A stretch of 64,000 nucleotides of DNA from Archangium sp. (lineage in GTDB: Bacteria; Myxococcota; Myxococcia; Myxococcales; Myxococcaceae): contig JAUYRZ010000106.1 of assembly GCA_030695565.1 (NCBI GenBank), positions 1-64,000 of the forward strand, in the 5' to 3' direction. Every line of letters starts with the position of its first letter. The stretch's first letter is position 1. Below, one piece after another: positions 36,870 through 44,807 of the stretch. A program made the translations under genes and the position numbers. The notes beneath the pieces were generated by a model. That model searched no databases and was not told the DNA's origin. It saw only the letters and a list, made by a program, of their open reading frames with translations.

Positions 36870-38093
36870 ATGCACGTCGTCTTCGTCGAGCCCCGCTTCC
36901 CGGTCAATCAGCGCTACTTCGTGAAGGCCTTGAAGGAGGTCGGCGCCACCGTCACGGCGATCGGCGAAGGCTCCAAGGATTCGTTGAGCGGTGAGATGCG
37001 CCAGTGGCTCACGCACTACGAGCAGGTCGACTCGGTGGTGAACGAAGGCGCCATGCTGCGCGCCGCGAAGTTCATTCACGGCAAACACCGCATCGATCGC
37101 CTGGAAGCGACCGTCGAGGCGCACATCATGTCGACCGCGAAGGTGCGCGAGGCGATGGGCATCGAGGGCACGTCGGTGAAGACCTCGTGGTTGTGCCGCG
37201 ACAAGCCCTCGATGAAGGAAGCGCTGCGGAATGCCGGCGTGCCCTGCGCGATGTCGGCCGCCGTTTCTTCTCTCGATGAGCTGGTGGCCTTCGCGAAGCA
37301 GGTCGGCTTCCCGTTGATCATCAAGCCGCGTGATGGCGCCGGCGCATCAGGCACCAGCCGCTGCGACTCGTTGGCGGATCTCGCCAAGGCGGCCTCTGAG
37401 CTCGGCGTGGATCGCGGCCGTTCGGTCGCCGTCGAAGAGTTCATCGAAGGCCACGAAGGTTTCTACGACACCATCAGCATCGGTGGCCGCGTGGTGCACG
37501 ACTTCGTCACGCACTACTACCCGAACGTGCTCGAGGCGATGCGGCACCGGTGGATCAGCCCGCAGTTCGTCACCACCAATCGCGTCGACTCTGCGCCCGG
37601 CTACAACGAGCTCAAGGTGCTCGGCGGCAAGGTGCTGCGCGCGCTCGACATCGGCACGTCGGCCACGCACATGGAGTGGTTCTCAGGGCCCAAGGGTCTC
37701 AAGTTCTCGGAGATCGGCTGCCGCCCGCCCGGCGTGCGCGCGTGGGATCTCTACAACGTGGGCAACGACGTCGACCTGTACCGTGAGTGGGCGATGGCCA
37801 TCGTGCACGGCCGCCCGGGGGCACGCCTCTCGCGCCGCTTCGCCACCGGCATCGTGGCGCTGCGCCCCAGCCAGGACGGCCGCATCGCGAAGTACGTCGG
37901 CGTGGAGAAGGTCGAGCGTGCGTTCGGTCAGTGGATGATCGACGCCCACCTGCCGCCCGAAGGCACGCCCACGCAGCCGGTGTCCGCCGGCTACATGGCC
38001 AACGCGTGGATGCGCTTCAAGCACCCCGACTACGACACGCTGCGCGAGATGCTCACCGCGGTGGGCGAGACCGTCAAAGTCCTTGCGAGGTAG
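36870..38093 (+). CDS. ATP-grasp domain ligase (left border gene of the island)
   Basis: A 407-residue ATP-grasp enzyme. It has an N-terminal pre-ATP-grasp domain (MHVVFVEPRFPVNQRYFVKA), an ATP-binding lysine pair near FPLIIKPRDGAGASGTSR (about residues 150-167), and the metal-site segment MEWFSGPKGLKFSEIGCRP with Glu and Asn/Arg (about 270-290). These enzymes couple a carboxylate to an amine using ATP. It starts 8 bp after glgA. Its 3' end (37959-38093) recurs in diverged form at 43965-44052 on the far side of the retron/Septu island, so this gene marks an integration point. The substrate is unknown. Confidence 0.85.
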   Translation: MHVVFVEPRFPVNQRYFVKALKEVGATVTAIGEGSKDSLSGEMRQWLTHYEQVDSVVNEGAMLRAAKFIHGKHRIDRLEATVEAHIMSTAKVREAMGIEGTSVKTSWLCRDKPSMKEALRNAGVPCAMSAAVSSLDELVAFAKQVGFPLIIKPRDGAGASGTSRCDSLADLAKAASELGVDRGRSVAVEEFIEGHEGFYDTISIGGRVVHDFVTHYYPNVLEAMRHRWISPQFVTTNRVDSAPGYNELKVLGGKVLRALDIGTSATHMEWFSGPKGLKFSEIGCRPPGVRAWDLYNVGNDVDLYREWAMAIVHGRPGARLSRRFATGIVALRPSQDGRIAKYVGVEKVERAFGQWMIDAHLPPEGTPTQPVSAGYMANAWMRFKHPDYDTLREMLTAVGETVKVLAR

Positions 38094-38095
38094 AC

Positions 38096-38230
38096 ATGGA
38101 ACTATTCGCTCTTGGAGCCGCCCAGTACTGGTCATCCCCGAATAGGTTGTGGCCCGGCGATTGGCAATGGCTGACGGACCGCGGCCAGTGTGTGAGATCT
38201 GTTCGCTCTACCCTGGTTCGCGCGGACTAG
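38096..38230 (+). CDS. Possible small ORF, 44 aa, at the left island edge
   Basis: An ATG at 38096 follows GAGG six bases upstream, which is the best ribosome site in this region, and opens a 44-codon frame (MELFALGAAQYW...VRAD). It begins 2 bp after the ATP-grasp stop and overlaps the ATPase start in another frame. It could be a leader peptide, a remnant, or the true N-terminal part of the ATPase after a frameshift. There is no known family. Confidence 0.3.
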   Translation: MELFALGAAQYWSSPNRLWPGDWQWLTDRGQCVRSVRSTLVRAD

Positions 38231-39717
38231 AGCGCTCCTCAGTCTCAGCGGTCGCTCTGATGGAGCTGTTGTTCTTCGTTTCGCGGCTCGGCAATTTCCG
38301 TGCGCCATGGTTGGATTACGCGATGATATTTCGTCGCTTCGACTCGCTCGTTCAGATGAATGCCGCTGAGCATCTTGGCGTAAGCCTCGTACCCGACCCA
38401 TGGAACGACTATGGATACAGGACTACTTTCTCACTCTTCTATCGGGACCTGCAGGGACAACACGGCCTTGGTTCGGTCAAGATTGCTACGAAGCGTGGAG
38501 ACCAGACAACTGTGGTCCCGGAAAGCTTCGAGACTCTCGGAGACGGTTACTGCACTCTTGGCGCATCATCTTCTGTCTACGCGCGCACGGATGCATTGCT
38601 GGGAAGGACCGCAGCCGATCAAATCTGGAGTGCGCTGCGGGACTGTCATGCTGACGCCACTTCAAGCGATGGCTTCCAGGCCAACCCGGCATTCTCTGAA
38701 TCACTCCTACGCTTCGCCCCTGCCCGGCTGTTGCTGAGTTCGGGGCGGTTGCCAAACTATGCCCTGAATGCGAACCCAGAGCTTCGGTGCTCGATTCGAC
38801 TAAATGGTTTCGAGGTAAGTCATGAAGTGCACCTCAGATTCGGGCTGGCAGAGCCAATAAGCGGAAATGTGGTCGTCTTGATTGGCCCAAGCGGGGTTGG
38901 CAAGACAGGCGTGCTGGCAAAGTTGGCAACAGGGCTCGCAGGGGAGGAGGACGACTCTGTGTCCTGGCTCGCACATCCTCCAGCATTCTCGCGAATCTGT
39001 GCTGCGTCATATGGTGTCATGCTCCCATTCAAGGAGCGAGTGCGCGAAGCTAGCGTGTTTGAGGATCTAGGAACCAATCGAATTGGAGTCTACAGTACGA
39101 GTTCTGCTGTCGTGCATTTCGCAAACACATTAGGCAGGATAGAAGAACTCGGGCTGAGTGATTGGTCGGAAACCGAAGCACTGCTCAAGGATACTCTGCC
39201 GGAGGTTCCTTTGACCTCGCTCTCTCCAGCAGCGGATCTGGCAACGAGGTTCGCAGCGGCGAGTGCTGGTCATCGCATGTTTGCTACCCTTATCACTGAT
39301 CTGCATCTATTCGTAATTCCGGATAGTCTGATTCTCTTAGATGAACCAGAAATACACTTGCATCCAACCCTGCTTACACGCTTGGTTCACTGGTTCTATG
39401 GGATGCTTGCGCGCCGACGCGCCTTGGCAGTTATTGCCACTCACTCCCCCACTGTCGTCCAGTCGACGCTTGGAAAACAGGTTAGAATTTTATCTCGAAA
39501 CGGAAACCGAGCGAAGATGTCCTTGCCGGATCGCGAAACGCTTGGGTCGGGAGTATCAGAATTGAATGATGCGGTCTTCAGAGCGAGTGGCGCAGAGCCG
39601 CGCTATTTGGACGCACTCAAAAGCGCAATTCAAGGTCATGGCGTGGCGAAGGTCCGGGAAAGCTTTATTGCGCCCAGAACGCTGGAGCTCGAAGTCGCGA
39701 TTCGTAGTTTGGCTTAA
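38167..39717 (+). CDS. ABC/SMC-type ATPase, PtuA (Septu)-like
   Basis: A 516-residue protein if started at ATG 38167; the start is uncertain, with GTG 38149, ATG 38260 and ATG 38356 in frame. Residues about 70-210 are an unnamed N-terminal domain (DPWNDYGYRTTFSLFYRD). The ATPase shows Walker A GPSGVGKT (about 240-247), a signature-like SAGHRM, Walker B LILLDEPE and switch His in ATHSP. This is the layout of AAA-15/ABC defence ATPases such as PtuA, which forms a complex with a nuclease. It ends 2 bp before the HNH gene, so the two are an operon. AT-rich codon use (one counted line is 23/60 GC) suggests transfer. It is expected to sense a trigger and license PtuB. Confidence 0.78.
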   Translation: MADGPRPVCEICSLYPGSRGLERSSVSAVALMELLFFVSRLGNFRAPWLDYAMIFRRFDSLVQMNAAEHLGVSLVPDPWNDYGYRTTFSLFYRDLQGQHGLGSVKIATKRGDQTTVVPESFETLGDGYCTLGASSSVYARTDALLGRTAADQIWSALRDCHADATSSDGFQANPAFSESLLRFAPARLLLSSGRLPNYALNANPELRCSIRLNGFEVSHEVHLRFGLAEPISGNVVVLIGPSGVGKTGVLAKLATGLAGEEDDSVSWLAHPPAFSRICAASYGVMLPFKERVREASVFEDLGTNRIGVYSTSSAVVHFANTLGRIEELGLSDWSETEALLKDTLPEVPLTSLSPAADLATRFAAASAGHRMFATLITDLHLFVIPDSLILLDEPEIHLHPTLLTRLVHWFYGMLARRRALAVIATHSPTVVQSTLGKQVRILSRNGNRAKMSLPDRETLGSGVSELNDAVFRASGAEPRYLDALKSAIQGHGVAKVRESFIAPRTLELEVAIRSLA

Positions 39718-39719
39718 CC

Positions 39720-40529
39720 ATGATACCTCTTCAGAAGAGCGATCTCGATCCGTTTGTCCGACTGCAGCAACTGCTTAAGAGAAAGAGCCAAGAAGTGCGC
39801 GCGGAGTTTGAGCCGCAACTTGGTTTTATTGAGCGCGCGTATGCCTCCTTTGACTGTCACACGCCCGAGTTTATGTCTGTTGCTGGGATACGGTTCGGTG
39901 ACGACTCTGATGATCTATGGCGTGAGTTATACAGGTTTGACCAGGCAGATATTGCTTCATTGAAAGAGCAGCTCGATATACAGCTTGACGGTGTCTGCTG
40001 GTATTGCCGGATCGCGCCGGCCGACTCGCTTGATCACGTGTTGCCGCAACGCCAGAATCCGCTATACACGGTCCACAGCAGTAACCTTATTCCTGCGTGC
40101 ACTGCGTGTAACCGGAAGAAAGGTGAATTAAATGCGATCAGTCGCGACACGGTGTATCCGTACGGTGAGATTGAGCGATCGCTTCGATGGTTGTTTGCTA
40201 GAATCGAATTGGTCGGTGGCGATATTGAGGTTCGATTTTTCGCCGATTTCGCCAGGCTCGCCAGCGCAAGAAGTCGCGAGGTTATGGCGCGTCATATCGA
40301 CGAAATGGGCATTTGCGAGACGTATGCGCGGCATTTCGCGCGATTAGGTCGCAGCGACATGGTCGGCCGGTTTGGCTATTTGCGTGGAGGGAGGGAGGTT
40401 GTTGAGGCTATTACCGCTATCCTCCCTGGTTACGAGGTTGGTTTTGGTCCAAACTACTACCTGTCAGTCGGCATGGAGGCGTTGTCGCTGTGCAACGACG
40501 AGACGATTGCTGCGTTTCTACGGAAGTAG
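39720..40529 (+). CDS. HNH endonuclease, PtuB (Septu)-like
   Basis: A 269-residue protein with a Zn-finger HNH core. CWYC (Cys93, Cys96) is followed by SLDHVLPQ (Asp105-His106) and then by SSNLIPACTACNRKKGE, with Cys127, Cys130 and Asn131, the standard C-C/DH/N/C-C pattern. The helical N-terminal 90 residues and C-terminal 130 residues are unassigned. It is translated from ATG 39720, 2 bp after the ATPase. In characterised Septu and Retron-Eco7 (Ec78) systems the ATPase/HNH pair cleaves nucleic acid (tRNA or DNA, by system) and causes abortive infection. That role is inferred here. Confidence 0.8.
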   Translation: MIPLQKSDLDPFVRLQQLLKRKSQEVRAEFEPQLGFIERAYASFDCHTPEFMSVAGIRFGDDSDDLWRELYRFDQADIASLKEQLDIQLDGVCWYCRIAPADSLDHVLPQRQNPLYTVHSSNLIPACTACNRKKGELNAISRDTVYPYGEIERSLRWLFARIELVGGDIEVRFFADFARLASARSREVMARHIDEMGICETYARHFARLGRSDMVGRFGYLRGGREVVEAITAILPGYEVGFGPNYYLSVGMEALSLCNDETIAAFLRK

Positions 40530-40564
40530 CGGTAGCTGTGATCGCCGTGCTGAAGTTCCTCTGT

Positions 40565-41779
40565 CTACGTGACATGGCCAAGCATTGCGCCGCGATGATC
40601 AATGCATGGCCCGATCACCGGCAAGCTCGTATCGATCATCACCCGTGAGTCCTTAAGCAACAGAGTCGTTGAGATTACACTTTCGCCGTCTTGGCTGAGA
40701 GCAAGGACCGTTTCACCGGGATGAGCTGGAACTAGTCTAGGCCGCAGGCTCACAACTCCGCGTCGAAGTTCCCGGAGGGGTTCACGCCAGAACAGCTTTT
40801 CGTCGACCACCGGGGTGCCTAAGAGCCGGTGCATCCAAGTTTGGACGGTCGCATCACCGGCCCCTCGAACTTGGCTGACGAAGGCGATGGTCGATGCGAG
40901 ACGTGCCCGAAAGGTACCAGGTTTGGCAGACGCGCGATGGTGGCCTTCGCACGCCTCCATGCCGCGAATTTCCACCAGTCGCAGCATGGCTTCGATGCGC
41001 TTCACCAAATGGCTGCGCACGTCGAGGCGCGCCCCCAGCCGAATTCCGGTGACGACCAGTCGACCTGACACAGACCGCTCGATTCGAGTCTTGCTTCCGT
41101 TAATCTTGAGTTGCTGGCGACTCAATATTTGTGTGATTATGGGACTTATCACAATTCCGCGTAGAGGCTTTCTGAGTGCGAATGCGAGTTCGGCCGGGAA
41201 TTCGGTGGATTGTGTTGAGAACGTAAAGTCGTCACCGTATCGGCTGTACTGACAGCCCGAGTCATTGGCCAAGCGCGAGTACCGCGCATCGACATCTCTC
41301 ATGAAGATATCGGAAAGGGCTGGTGACGATGGACTCCCGGTTGGGAGGCTTCCTCGAAGACAGCATATGTCGCATATCCATCGAGCCACTTCGGGGGTAA
41401 CGCCAAGTGGAGAGTTCATGAGAGCAGTCACGAGATCGTCATCCACGATTGCGTCGAAAAACCCCTCAACGTCAAAATTTAGCGCGGAATTTGCGCCAAA
41501 ATGAACCAGCGCATTGGACACAATGCTTCGCCCAGTCAAGAAGGCGTGGCTGGCGCGGTGCGGAGTGGCACCGCCGCTCAAGCAGGCGGCGATTCGCGAC
41601 TGAACATCAGCAAGCGGAGGATATGGGGCGTAGATTTTGCGCAAGCCACCGCTCCGCTTCGGAATTGAGAAGGTGTCATAATTCCTATGGAACGACGCGT
41701 TGCGCGCAACAAAGGACTTAAAGGTCGCAAGAGAGCCACGCAAAAGCTCTAACGCCGACTGGGACTCAATCGTTACCAA
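40565..41779 (-). CDS. Retron-type reverse transcriptase
   Basis: A 404-residue retron reverse transcriptase. Key motifs are the retron-specific NAxxH box (NALVH, residues 89-93), catalytic Asp in NFDVEGFFDA (about 101-110), LPTGSPSSPALSD (145-157), the active site YGDD (181-184) inside CQYSRYGDDFTFST, and the VTG triplet of region Y (243-245). Together NAxxH and VTG separate retron RTs from group II intron and DGR enzymes. YGDD replaces the common YADD, and LPTG replaces LPQG. The start is TTG 41779, because an in-frame TAG lies 18 nt upstream. It is convergent with the HNH gene across 35 bp. Confidence 0.88.
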   Translation of the reverse strand: MVTIESQSALELLRGSLATFKSFVARNASFHRNYDTFSIPKRSGGLRKIYAPYPPLADVQSRIAACLSGGATPHRASHAFLTGRSIVSNALVHFGANSALNFDVEGFFDAIVDDDLVTALMNSPLGVTPEVARWICDICCLRGSLPTGSPSSPALSDIFMRDVDARYSRLANDSGCQYSRYGDDFTFSTQSTEFPAELAFALRKPLRGIVISPIITQILSRQQLKINGSKTRIERSVSGRLVVTGIRLGARLDVRSHLVKRIEAMLRLVEIRGMEACEGHHRASAKPGTFRARLASTIAFVSQVRGAGDATVQTWMHRLLGTPVVDEKLFWREPLRELRRGVVSLRPRLVPAHPGETVLALSQDGESVISTTLLLKDSRVMIDTSLPVIGPCIDHRGAMLGHVT

Positions 41780-41821
41780 GGTCCAAGATCCCTACAACAT
41801 TTACTGGTGAACTAGTGGGCA

Positions 41822-42070
41822 GCTATCCACAACCATTTGCGCGAGTATTGGCGATTCGCCAATACAGTCAGTCCCAGCCGGCTTGGTCATGTTAGCCAAG
41901 CGCGCTTGGAACGCAAGATCAACCTTGCGGCTCTTCGGACAGCCAGGACCGCCGCTAGGCTTACGGCGCAAAGAGACGTTTGCCGAAGCCACCCTCGAGC
42001 GACGAGACCGTGGTGCCGAGCGATCGCACCAGGCAGCATCCACACAACTGGGCGGGTTCTTGTGGGAAGC
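41822..42070 (-). ncRNA. Candidate retron msr-msd non-coding RNA
   Basis: This lies within the 303-bp gene-free stretch directly upstream of the RT, in the RT sense orientation. Candidate outer pairing arms are GCTTCCCACAA (42070-42060) and TTGTGGATAGC (41832-41822), 9 of 11 pairs, the layout expected of a1/a2. Inside are hairpins at 42011-42031 (6 bp), 41912-41929 (CGCAAG/CTTGCG), 41896-41909 (perfect 14-nt palindrome), 41881-41901 (6 bp), and 41845-41865 (9 bp, 3-nt loop, GTATTGGCG/CGCCAATAC). Size and position fit retron ncRNAs. No branch-point guanosine can be fixed, so boundaries are tentative. Confidence 0.45.
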
Positions 42071-42082
42071 CTTATCGGGGGT

Positions 42083-42916
42083 CTAAAGCAAATCCAGTTG
42101 GGCAATATGCGGTGCAGGGAAGACGCCGATTACGACCCACGGATTTGGCCCTACCTGATGCCACGCTTGGGTAGTGCCCAGAAGGAGATGAATGTCCGTT
42201 TGGAAGAAGCGGCTAACGTACATCTCGCGCACTTTTGTAATCGCGCGCTCCTCCGTCTCCTCAGATCGGAGACAGTTCCAAAAGAGGGCGCCGATCTCCC
42301 AATCCAAAATTATTAGAGTGCTTTCGCGCCCGCTGTCATCGCGGAAGCGATATGAAAAGCGATACGGCAGTTTCCGGATCAGCGCGAATGTGTTCCGCCA
42401 GGTGTCGTCATTGAACAATTCGGCTTGACGCGAAAGCTCGCGCATCTGCCTCACGCGATCTGGGTTCCACTCACGCTCGTCCTCCTCCTCTATGATGAGG
42501 TCAATCATTTGTGATGGCTTGAATGTCGCAAGTGATCTGCGATTTGCGTGGGCGTCATCGATGAGAACCTGTAATGAGGAGTCAACGCGACCAGTCTCGA
42601 GAAGGATTCGCCGCCGCTCGCGCCATTGATGGTCAGAGCCCGTGCCGAGATGGTCTGTGGCGGCGAGCTCGCTCATGTCGACCGGTCGGTGGCTCTCTGG
42701 ACGCACGTCACTCGAGTGGCGGAGCACGCGGCAGTTGACCCAGTCGTACTTTCGATACTGCTGCGTCTCTTCGAGCCGACGAAATGGAACCGGATAGAGA
42801 CGTATCCAAGACCCATCCTCTCGGACTCCAGCCGTACAGACGGTTTCGCCGTGCCTCTTGGAAAGGGTCGGGTAGGTCTTCACAGTGATCAGGACGCGTT
42901 CGCGAGGGTGTGCCAT
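42083..42916 (-). CDS. Unrecognised protein in the retron island
   Basis: A 277-residue protein from ATG 42916; TTG 42925 would overlap the DUF488 stop. I do not recognise its family. It has no signal peptide or membrane segment. Distinctive stretches are LITVKTYPTLSKRHGETVCT near the N-terminus, SWIRLYPVPFRRLEE, and GRESTLIILDWEIGALFWN in the middle, ending with LLGTTQAWHQVGPNPWVVIG. It is coupled to the DUF488 gene (6-bp gap), and its stop lies 13 bp before the candidate ncRNA. The island context suggests a defence-related or nucleic-acid role, but this is inference. Confidence 0.7.
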   Translation of the reverse strand: MAHPRERVLITVKTYPTLSKRHGETVCTAGVREDGSWIRLYPVPFRRLEETQQYRKYDWVNCRVLRHSSDVRPESHRPVDMSELAATDHLGTGSDHQWRERRRILLETGRVDSSLQVLIDDAHANRRSLATFKPSQMIDLIIEEEDEREWNPDRVRQMRELSRQAELFNDDTWRNTFALIRKLPYRFSYRFRDDSGRESTLIILDWEIGALFWNCLRSEETEERAITKVREMYVSRFFQTDIHLLLGTTQAWHQVGPNPWVVIGVFPAPHIAQLDLL

Positions 42917-42921
42917 CGGCC

Positions 42922-43836
42922 TCAAAGGTGTCGGGGGGCGTAGTTGGTGCCGAACTCCGTCTCAAGTATCTCAGCAACGCAGTGACGATGGCATTGTTGC
43001 GGATCGCGCTCGAAGCACATCAGAGCCACGCGACCCCCATTCGAGAGTTCGCGAAGGCGTCGCAATGCAGGCTTCTGCTCGGGAAGCCAGTCACGTTCAT
43101 AGTCCGCGAAGAGTGCGTCATAATCGGCTTGCGTCTCCAACGTGCGGCGCTTTGATGAGTCGATCCCCAGCTCCGGGATGTGTTCGTAGGCGATACCGAC
43201 GTTGCGGCACGAATTTGCGAGTGTGCTTTTAGAGAATCCTGGTTTTCGGGAGATGGGATTGCGTCGAACGTCGCACAGAACGTCGACCGCGCTGACAATC
43301 AGTGCGTTCAAGAAGCTATCGACAGTCTGCCCTTCGTAGCCGACCGTGAAGATCCGTGTCTGGGTAGTTAGCGGCTTCGCCGCAGTGATCGCTTTGAGCG
43401 CCGGCATATCCCCAGCAAGGACGCGATCTGAGATCTCGCTCCGGGTGGCGAAGTAGGGATAGCGGCGGTAGGTAAGCGCAACCAACGGATCGCCGCGTAG
43501 TTCGCTGTACTTCCTTGCGAATGCCATGAATTCGACGTCCTCCGTCGCGATGGTCTTTTCGGCTTTCGGCGTCAAAACCCAGCCATCCTCATCCACTACT
43601 AGGCCCAGTTCGATCAACTTGCGAAGGTCCGCGTAGGACGTGAAGGAGAATGCCCCGAAACGATACGGGACGAAGGTGTAGGGAGGGGAACTCGATTCTT
43701 GGCAATACAAGAAAAGCAACTTCTGTAGGTCGACTTTGCCAAGCGCGCCCCCAAAGGCCCTCAACAACTGGAGCAAGCGGAGTTGTCGGGGGTAGAGCGG
43801 CACTTGTTTCGGTTCATGGGTTGCTGCGCGTGCCAT
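42922..43836 (-). CDS. DUF488-family protein with N-terminal helical domain
   Basis: A 304-residue protein. The C-terminal DUF488 domain (about 155-300) shows FTVGYEGQTVDSFLNAL, DVRRNPISRKPGFSK and the end ALMCFERDPQQCHRHCVAEI. The DVR-NP-SR and C-HR pairs are diagnostic. The N-terminal part (about 15-110, KVDLQKLLFLYCQE and FVPYRFGAFSFTSYADLRKL) resembles the SocA/Panacea-like or winged-helix fusions seen in this family. The frame is open back to 44097, but ATG 43836 (MARAATHEPK) is preferred because upstream codons include the displaced ATP-grasp fragment. DUF488 is of unknown function. Confidence 0.75.
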   Translation of the reverse strand: MARAATHEPKQVPLYPRQLRLLQLLRAFGGALGKVDLQKLLFLYCQESSSPPYTFVPYRFGAFSFTSYADLRKLIELGLVVDEDGWVLTPKAEKTIATEDVEFMAFARKYSELRGDPLVALTYRRYPYFATRSEISDRVLAGDMPALKAITAAKPLTTQTRIFTVGYEGQTVDSFLNALIVSAVDVLCDVRRNPISRKPGFSKSTLANSCRNVGIAYEHIPELGIDSSKRRTLETQADYDALFADYERDWLPEQKPALRRLRELSNGGRVALMCFERDPQQCHRHCVAEILETEFGTNYAPRHL

Positions 43837-43964
43837 TCCGAGAGGCAGATCACAACCCCGTGAAACAGGCAAACCCGACAGCAGGTAGGCCGGCATCGCA
43901 CCGTGGCTGAATCCCGGGGCCAGTAGAGTTGACCGCCAACGGCTCAAAATTTCTTGAGAATCCG

Positions 43965-44052
43965 GAAGGCGCGCCGACGCAGCCAGTCTCAGCGGGCTAC
44001 ATGGCCCACGGACAAGGTGGTGGGTGAGAGCGTCAAAGTCCTCGCCCGGTAA
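43965..44052 (+). pseudogene. Displaced and deleted 3' end of an ATP-grasp gene (island border)
   Basis: 43965-44006 matches 37959-38000 of the resident ATP-grasp gene at 36 of 42 bases and gives EGAPTQPVSAGYMA against EGTPTQPVSAGYMA. Five of the six changes are synonymous. A net deletion of 47 bases follows, then VGESVKVLAR and stop against VGETVKVLAR and stop. So the fragment is the tail of a once-functional homologue, not a fresh duplication. It sits immediately right of the island and before a palindromic repeat. Confidence 0.75.
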
Positions 44053-44092
44053 CTCCCTCTCCCTTCGGTTCGGGAGAGGGTTGGGGGGGAGG
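44053..44092. repeat. Dispersed palindromic repeat, copy 4
   Basis: CCCTCTCCC, a loop, CGGGAGAGGG and a G-rich tail. It directly follows the displaced ATP-grasp end and ends next to the stop of the leftward ExbB/MotA-like gene. It may serve as a terminator for that gene. Confidence 0.65.
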
Positions 44093-44093
44093 G

Positions 44094-44807
44094 TCAAGTC
44101 TCCTCGACGTTCACCGTGACCTTCTGCATGCAGGCGCGGTGCAGCACGATGAGATTCATCATCGCCACGGAAGCCTGATTCAAATCGTTGAGCATGCCCT
44201 GCGTTCGGCCGTTCAAGACCGAGAACGCAATCAACAGCGGAATCGAAGCGATGAGCCCGAACTGCGTGCAGTTCATCGCCTCGCCGATCGACCCCGCGAG
44301 AATCGTCGCGCGCTCGGCAGCCGGAGCATGAGCCACCGCCTTGAATGATCCGATCAGCCCATGCACCGTGCCGAAGAGGCCGATCAACATCGCCGCGTTC
44401 CCCAACATCGCCAGGTAGCCGGTGCGCGCTTCGAGCCGCGGCGCTTCCCGCAGCGAGGCTTCATCGAGCGACGCCTGAACTTCCTCTTCACCCTTCGGGA
44501 TGTTCATCAGCCCGGCCTTCAACAGGTTGGTCAGGGGCGTCGACTTCTGGCCCCCGATGAAGCTGATGGCCTTGTCCACGTCGCCCGCGACGAGGTGCTT
44601 CTTGATGCCGCGGATCAACGCGTCCTTGTCGTTCGCCGCAGTGAAGAAGAGCGCGACGGCCCGCTCGACGATGATGGCCACCCCGATCACGAACACGATC
44701 GCGATGGGGTACATCGGCCAGCCGCCTTCGCTCCACGAGCCTCCCAACGATTGAAGCAAACCTTCTTCGACCACCGCCTCGGTAGCGAGCACTGCAGGGA
44801 GCGACAT
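44094..44807 (-). CDS. MotA/TolQ/ExbB-family proton channel protein
   Basis: A 237-residue inner-membrane protein of the MotA/TolQ/ExbB family, which uses the proton gradient to power partners in the periplasm. It has a first membrane helix (MYPIAIVFVIGVAIIVERAV), a cytoplasmic loop, and two C-terminal helices (LAMLGNAAMLIGLFGTVHGL and ALIASIPLLIAFSVLNG-like) with the conserved G-LGTV-x-G pattern as GLFGTVHGLIGSF. No TolR/ExbD/MotB partner gene is adjacent. The gene reads towards the island border, so any partner formerly downstream may have been lost. Confidence 0.88.
   Translation of the reverse strand: MSLPAVLATEAVVEEGLLQSLGGSWSEGGWPMYPIAIVFVIGVAIIVERAVALFFTAANDKDALIRGIKKHLVAGDVDKAISFIGGQKSTPLTNLLKAGLMNIPKGEEEVQASLDEASLREAPRLEARTGYLAMLGNAAMLIGLFGTVHGLIGSFKAVAHAPAAERATILAGSIGEAMNCTQFGLIASIPLLIAFSVLNGRTQGMLNDLNQASVAMMNLIVLHRACMQKVTVNVEET

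Follow-up and report, generated by a model that had tools for sequence, protein, structure and literature searches.

A reverse transcriptase convergent with an ATPase/HNH pair

In the 64,000-nt stretch of Archangium sp. DNA that we analysed (contig JAUYRZ010000106.1; hereafter the window), a gene for a retron-type reverse transcriptase (RT) runs towards genes for an ATPase and an HNH endonuclease. Do these genes form one defence system and, if so, does their orientation tell us anything about how it might work? The convergent layout reported by a first-pass annotation is real: all three ORFs are intact, and strands and the stop-to-stop gap agree with the earlier description (Table 1). The block is also, as stated there, AT-richer than the backbone, with a GC content of 52-58% against 63-70% in its surroundings. 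One gene boundary shifts, however: the ATPase had been started at 38167 but most likely begins at the ATG at 38323, because homology with the only close relative we found, an Archangium sp. MAG (L007), sets in exactly there.

Table 1. Coordinates of genes and candidate RNA elements in the window
Feature	Position	Strand	Remarks
ABC/AAA_21-type ATPase	38323..39717	+	464 aa; start from L007 homology
ATPase motifs	38323..39717	+	Walker A GPSGVGKT, Walker B LILLDEPE
HNH endonuclease	39720..40529	+	269 aa; PDC-M01B-like
Convergent gap, HNH stop to RT stop	40530..40564	.	35 bp; no terminator-like site
Retron-type RT	40565..41779	-	404 aa; UUG (TTG) start
RT C-terminal tail, residues 317-404	40568..40831	-	stands where RT relatives have a fused effector
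Candidate msr-msd ncRNA	41754..41882	-	129 nt; a1/a2 + hairpin scan, fold, conservation
a2 inverted repeat, AGTCCCAGTCGGC	41754..41766	-	13 bp; within RT codons 5-9
78-nt segment, ssRb + putative msd template	41767..41844	-	76 nt in L007; 9+67=76 in Eco2
RT UUG start codon	41777-41779	-	inside the 78-nt segment
SD-like AGGGA	41789-41793	-	9 nt before UUG in window and L007
msr hairpin	41845..41865	-	9 bp, AAU triloop; Eco2 msr loop also AAU (PMC12405507)
Candidate branching G	41869	-	directly after a1, then ACT (ACU in RNA)
a1 inverted repeat, GCCGGCTGGGACT	41870..41882	-	13 bp
Weak promoter-like TTGCGT-16-TAACAT	41889..41916	-	just upstream of a1

Two minus-strand genes next to the retron (42083-44097) match the candidate defence pair PDC-M19B and PDC-M19A (DUF488 domain), and with retron and PDC-M19 genes side by side the block qualifies as a defence island. 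At its far edge (43962-44052) lies a partial copy, 84% identical, of the 3' end of an ATP-grasp gene (36870-38093). The ATP-grasp gene is present in five genomes of the same genus, with different sequence downstream; going by these comparisons, its 3' end is a variable insertion site.

RT and effectors differ from those of Retron-Eco7

The gene inventory recalls retron type I-A/Septu type II (Retron-Eco7/Ec78, Eco4/Ec83), which likewise combines RT, ncRNA, ATPase and HNH nuclease, and the first-pass annotation implied that its RT is related to Eco7/Ec78. That the enzyme is a retron RT is borne out by its motifs, NALVH (residue 89; NAxxH), YGDD (181; YxDD) and VTG (243), and by strong matches to retron-RT HMMs, the best of which are RT-Protease_XI (1e-70), RT-TIR_XII (1e-63) and RT-Toprim_I-C (4e-55). 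The RT_I-A model, which matches a Vibrio control at 1.5e-146, is absent among the best 25 models for the window RT. In a tree of 24 rows, the window and L007 RTs share a long branch within a superclade (support 97/98) that includes RTs of I-C and XI type but not of I-A or III-A. HMMs and tree thus place the RT in the I-C/XI/XII superclade and outside the I-A clade, at odds with the implied kinship; its exact position inside the superclade is unsure owing to the long branch.

Relatives in this superclade are mostly 510-600 aa long and carry a fused effector. The window RT has no effector fused to it. Its HMM match ends at residue 319, and the 88-aa tail, conserved only in L007 (62% identical), has no Pfam match, no convincing plasmid relative and no known domain. 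AlphaFold models of the RT (pLDDT 41) and the ATPase (pLDDT 31) were too poor to use. The host genome contains at least three further retron-like RTs of different kinds (contigs C124, C21 and C90).

Turning to the effector genes, we find that the ATPase is best matched by the profile PDLC04244 PDC-M01A (6e-72), ahead of one PtuA model (2e-43) and AAA_21 (7e-14), while the HNH protein is best matched by PDC-M01B (3e-22), with Pfam HNH above cut-off and the motif CxxC...DH...N...CxxCN kept in alignment with L007. BLASTP aligns the ATPase to a stand-alone Peribacillus pair at 2e-42 and to the type I-A PtuA of Vibrio only at 0.05; the HNH protein has no detectable match to PtuB of the same Vibrio I-A PtuAB. 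On these profile and alignment scores the ATPase is PDC-M01A-like, a distant PtuA relative, and the pair is nearest to the PADLOC candidate PDC-M01, not to the type I-A PtuA/PtuB of Retron-Eco7. The PtuA/PtuB label given previously is therefore better dropped. More distant ATPase/HNH pairs (~30% identity) occur at seven other myxobacterial loci, and the 14-20 kb read around each contain no RT homologue.

RT and effector genes recur together

A scan with the RT of about 85,000 species genomes, which reaches close relatives only, returned a single relative, the same-genus L007. Its RT, ATPase and HNH proteins are 69%, 72% and 66% identical to those of the window, and the three genes lie adjacent in that order on one strand, RT and ATPase being 67 bp apart. 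The L007 unit occupies a different genomic site, which is AT-rich too and has no PDC-M19 pair. Window and L007 share two homology blocks, 38323-40529 (69.2% at the nucleotide level) and 40570-41903 (70.8%, inverted); these values indicate that effector and RT modules have diverged equally, and both blocks end at gene borders. Across 384 genomes, members of the RT clade or of the close ATPase clade are confined to the window genome and L007, each of which has both.

The earlier proposal that RT and ATPase/HNH belong together gains from this comparison, since both genomes with either component have them side by side, at different sites and in different orientations. As to a single system in the broader sense, the claim stands in so far as a homologous RT adjoins homologous ATPase/HNH genes in L007; it does not extend to the wider ATPase/HNH family, which is not tied to RTs. 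Overall, sequence evidence linking this RT to its ATPase/HNH pair is good but not final, as the known members of the variant number two, from one genus.

A candidate ncRNA that overlaps the RT gene

No ncRNA had been located by the first-pass annotation. Scanning for a1/a2 repeats followed by a hairpin, we identified a new 129-nt candidate with inverted repeats, a G after a1 and an msr hairpin (Table 1). Its score of 21.5 was reached by 0 of 200 region shuffles, the best of which scored 21.0; conservation and the resemblance to controls weigh as heavily in the case for an ncRNA as the shuffles do. The fold z-score is -3.1 in the window and -4.9 in L007; within the 321-nt region upstream of the RT, whose fold as a whole is not significant, only the 129-nt part is. 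BLAST conservation between window and L007 extends past the RT start to 41903. Both substitutions that affect the 22 ncRNA pairs keep pairing, and in a1/a2 the two genomes differ once, a G-C pair becoming G-U. A covariance model matches the window and L007 only (142 genomes), an Rfam search of the block yielded no matches, and viral contigs searched for RT, ATPase or the ncRNA pattern held no relatives. The promoter-like motif upstream of a1 was not picked by a consensus promoter scan; L007 has TTGAGT-16-TACGAT in the matching place (common pattern TTGNGT-16-TANNAT).

How does the element compare with known retron RNAs? In an Ec67-family control the same scan finds 13-bp a1/a2 repeats, a hairpin 4 nt after a1 and a total of 129 nt, and in a Sphingomonas I-C retron 12-bp repeats and a G followed by a hairpin. 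In the cryo-EM structure of Eco2, a1 ends at rA14, followed by the branching rG15, four nucleotides, the hairpin rG20-rU42 with its AAU loop, nine nucleotides and a 67-nt msd (PMC12405507). The 129-nt element is, then, probably a retron ncRNA with the msr layout of Eco2/Ec67. One feature does not fit: Eco2 msDNA is described with a long hairpin (PMC12405507), whereas the msDNA predicted here has no stable one. With -3.5 and -4.5 kcal/mol, the cDNA folds are no better than shuffles (z +1.0 and +0.6, versus -1.2 and -4.0 in two I-C controls; the copied stretch is itself predicted). The mismatch could mean an unusual msDNA, a copied part other than the one assumed here, or an element that is really a leader structure.

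The element also overlaps the RT gene. UUG is the only start codon in the vicinity common to window and L007, and in the window the RT frame is blocked by a TAG a few codons further upstream. Among RT codons 1-9, the 8 that can be tested show no synonymous change between window and L007; synonymous-level identity in the remaining codons is 117/264 (44%), so that the chance of 8/8 is about 0.0015. In Ec67, a2 stops 32 nt short of the RT start, and in the Sphingomonas retron 4 nt short of it; in the window it lies inside the gene, with the result that ribosome-binding site and start codon of the RT both fall within the predicted msd. This arrangement suggests a switch by which either the enzyme or its DNA is made, and through which, we infer, the RT would regulate itself. 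Such an overlap would be a simple route to controlling RT dosage in a toxin-antitoxin-like system.

Orientation is a local feature

Were convergence a conserved new architecture, as previously put forward, we would expect to see it in relatives, yet the only relative is co-directional. With L007 arranged this way at another site, the window layout is explained by a lineage-specific inversion of one module; as far as the two sequences tell, it is a local rearrangement and not conserved. In the absence of a terminator-like site in the gap, the 3' ends of RT and HNH transcripts may overlap.

A Priestia megaterium plasmid (NZ_CP137804) carries a type III-A retron convergent with Septu PtuA/PtuB about 200 bp away. 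We considered this plasmid as support for a convergent single system and rejected it: its RT is of type III-A, and two genes upstream, in the position that phosphoribosyltransferase pairs take at other III-A loci, provide the retron with an effector-like pair of its own. Judged by gene content, retron and PtuAB are most simply two neighbours there, convergent probably by chance, and annotation could mistake them for one system. Orientation alone is therefore weak evidence.

A proposed toxin-antitoxin-like retron and its alternatives

We consider it fairly probable that the locus encodes one toxin-antitoxin-like retron defence system, in which an RT of the I-C/XI/XII superclade works with a separate PDC-M01-type ATPase/HNH pair and the RT module happens to be inverted in the window. 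Two known systems offer analogies: Eco7 PtuAB is toxic and neutralised by RT plus msr-msd (PMC11555353), and in Ec83 msDNA sequesters PtuAB until phage infection degrades the msDNA (PMC12948488). By analogy, a transcript starting from a1 would fold through a1/a2 pairing; the RT would bind the AAU-loop hairpin, prime at the G after a1 and copy the segment upstream of a2. The resulting RT-msDNA complex would keep the ATPase/HNH nuclease inactive until phage damage to the msDNA freed it to cut nucleic acid, aborting the infection. The target may be DNA or tRNA, as known PtuABs differ in this respect (PMC11555353). With the RT start codon inside the predicted msd, any one RNA molecule could serve as template or as RT messenger, never both, which would limit the RT level. 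A bolder version of this model seems possible but rather doubtful to us: RT translation would be incompatible with reverse transcription (or with a1/a2 pairing), a built-in feedback, and the msDNA, a nearly unstructured single-stranded DNA antisense to the RT start, would control a newly recruited PDC-M01 nuclease.

Might RT and effectors instead share a defence island without belonging together, the retron module having its own effector or none and the PDC-M01 pair next to it being Septu-like and self-sufficient? As a rule, PDC-M01-type pairs stand alone, PDC-M19 adjoins, the Priestia plasmid shows PtuAB convergent with a retron that already has an effector-like pair, and in one case a retron effector has been replaced by a self-working system, with the RT dispensable against the phage tested (PMC12548924). 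Yet mere neighbours need not have stayed adjacent in two genomes despite differing sites and an inversion, nor have diverged equally and co-occurred exactly in 384 genomes, and this RT lacks any other attached effector; on balance we regard independence as unlikely, if worth serious attention.

The other two readings concern parts of the locus. Convergence could be functional, antisense overlap of 3' ends tuning toxin against antitoxin, which would be an addition to the single-system explanation and not an alternative to it. Separate upstream regions and a 35-bp gap free of terminator-like sites are compatible with this idea; the co-directional layout of the only relative makes it improbable. 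Somewhat less credible still is that the 129-nt element is an autoregulatory leader of the RT messenger and not an msr-msd. It does overlap ribosome-binding site and start codon, and the predicted msDNA has no stable hairpin, but a1 length, the G after a1, spacer, AAU-loop hairpin and total length closely match the Ec67/Eco2 msr, and the two roles can coexist.

Relation to known retron types

With type I-A/Septu type II the proposed single system would share its components and, presumably, a hold-and-release logic. It differs from type I-A in its RT, in PDC-M01-like effectors, in the inverted RT module of the window, and in an Eco2-like ncRNA that overlaps the RT gene. RT superclade and msr layout are those of type I-C (Eco2/Ec67, RT-Toprim) and XI/XII, from which it is set apart by the 88-aa tail in place of a fused Toprim, protease or TIR and, in the case of I-C, by the position of a2. 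PDC-M01 supplies the closest models for ATPase and HNH, but the pair is RT-linked in the window and without an RT at the other loci examined. Compared at the sequence level, this combination of superclade RT, overlapping Eco2-like ncRNA and PDC-M01-type effector matches no known retron type.

The convergent layout alone matters little. What the locus suggests is that RTs and ATPase/HNH pairs of unrelated families have been combined into this design on more than one occasion, which would make retron sensing modules exchangeable between toxins. A possible further retron variant is found on Picosynechococcus plasmid pAQ5, where the gene for a 370-aa RT, unfused and from the same superclade, is followed, co-directionally, by a hypothetical gene and a gene for a large ATP-binding protein.
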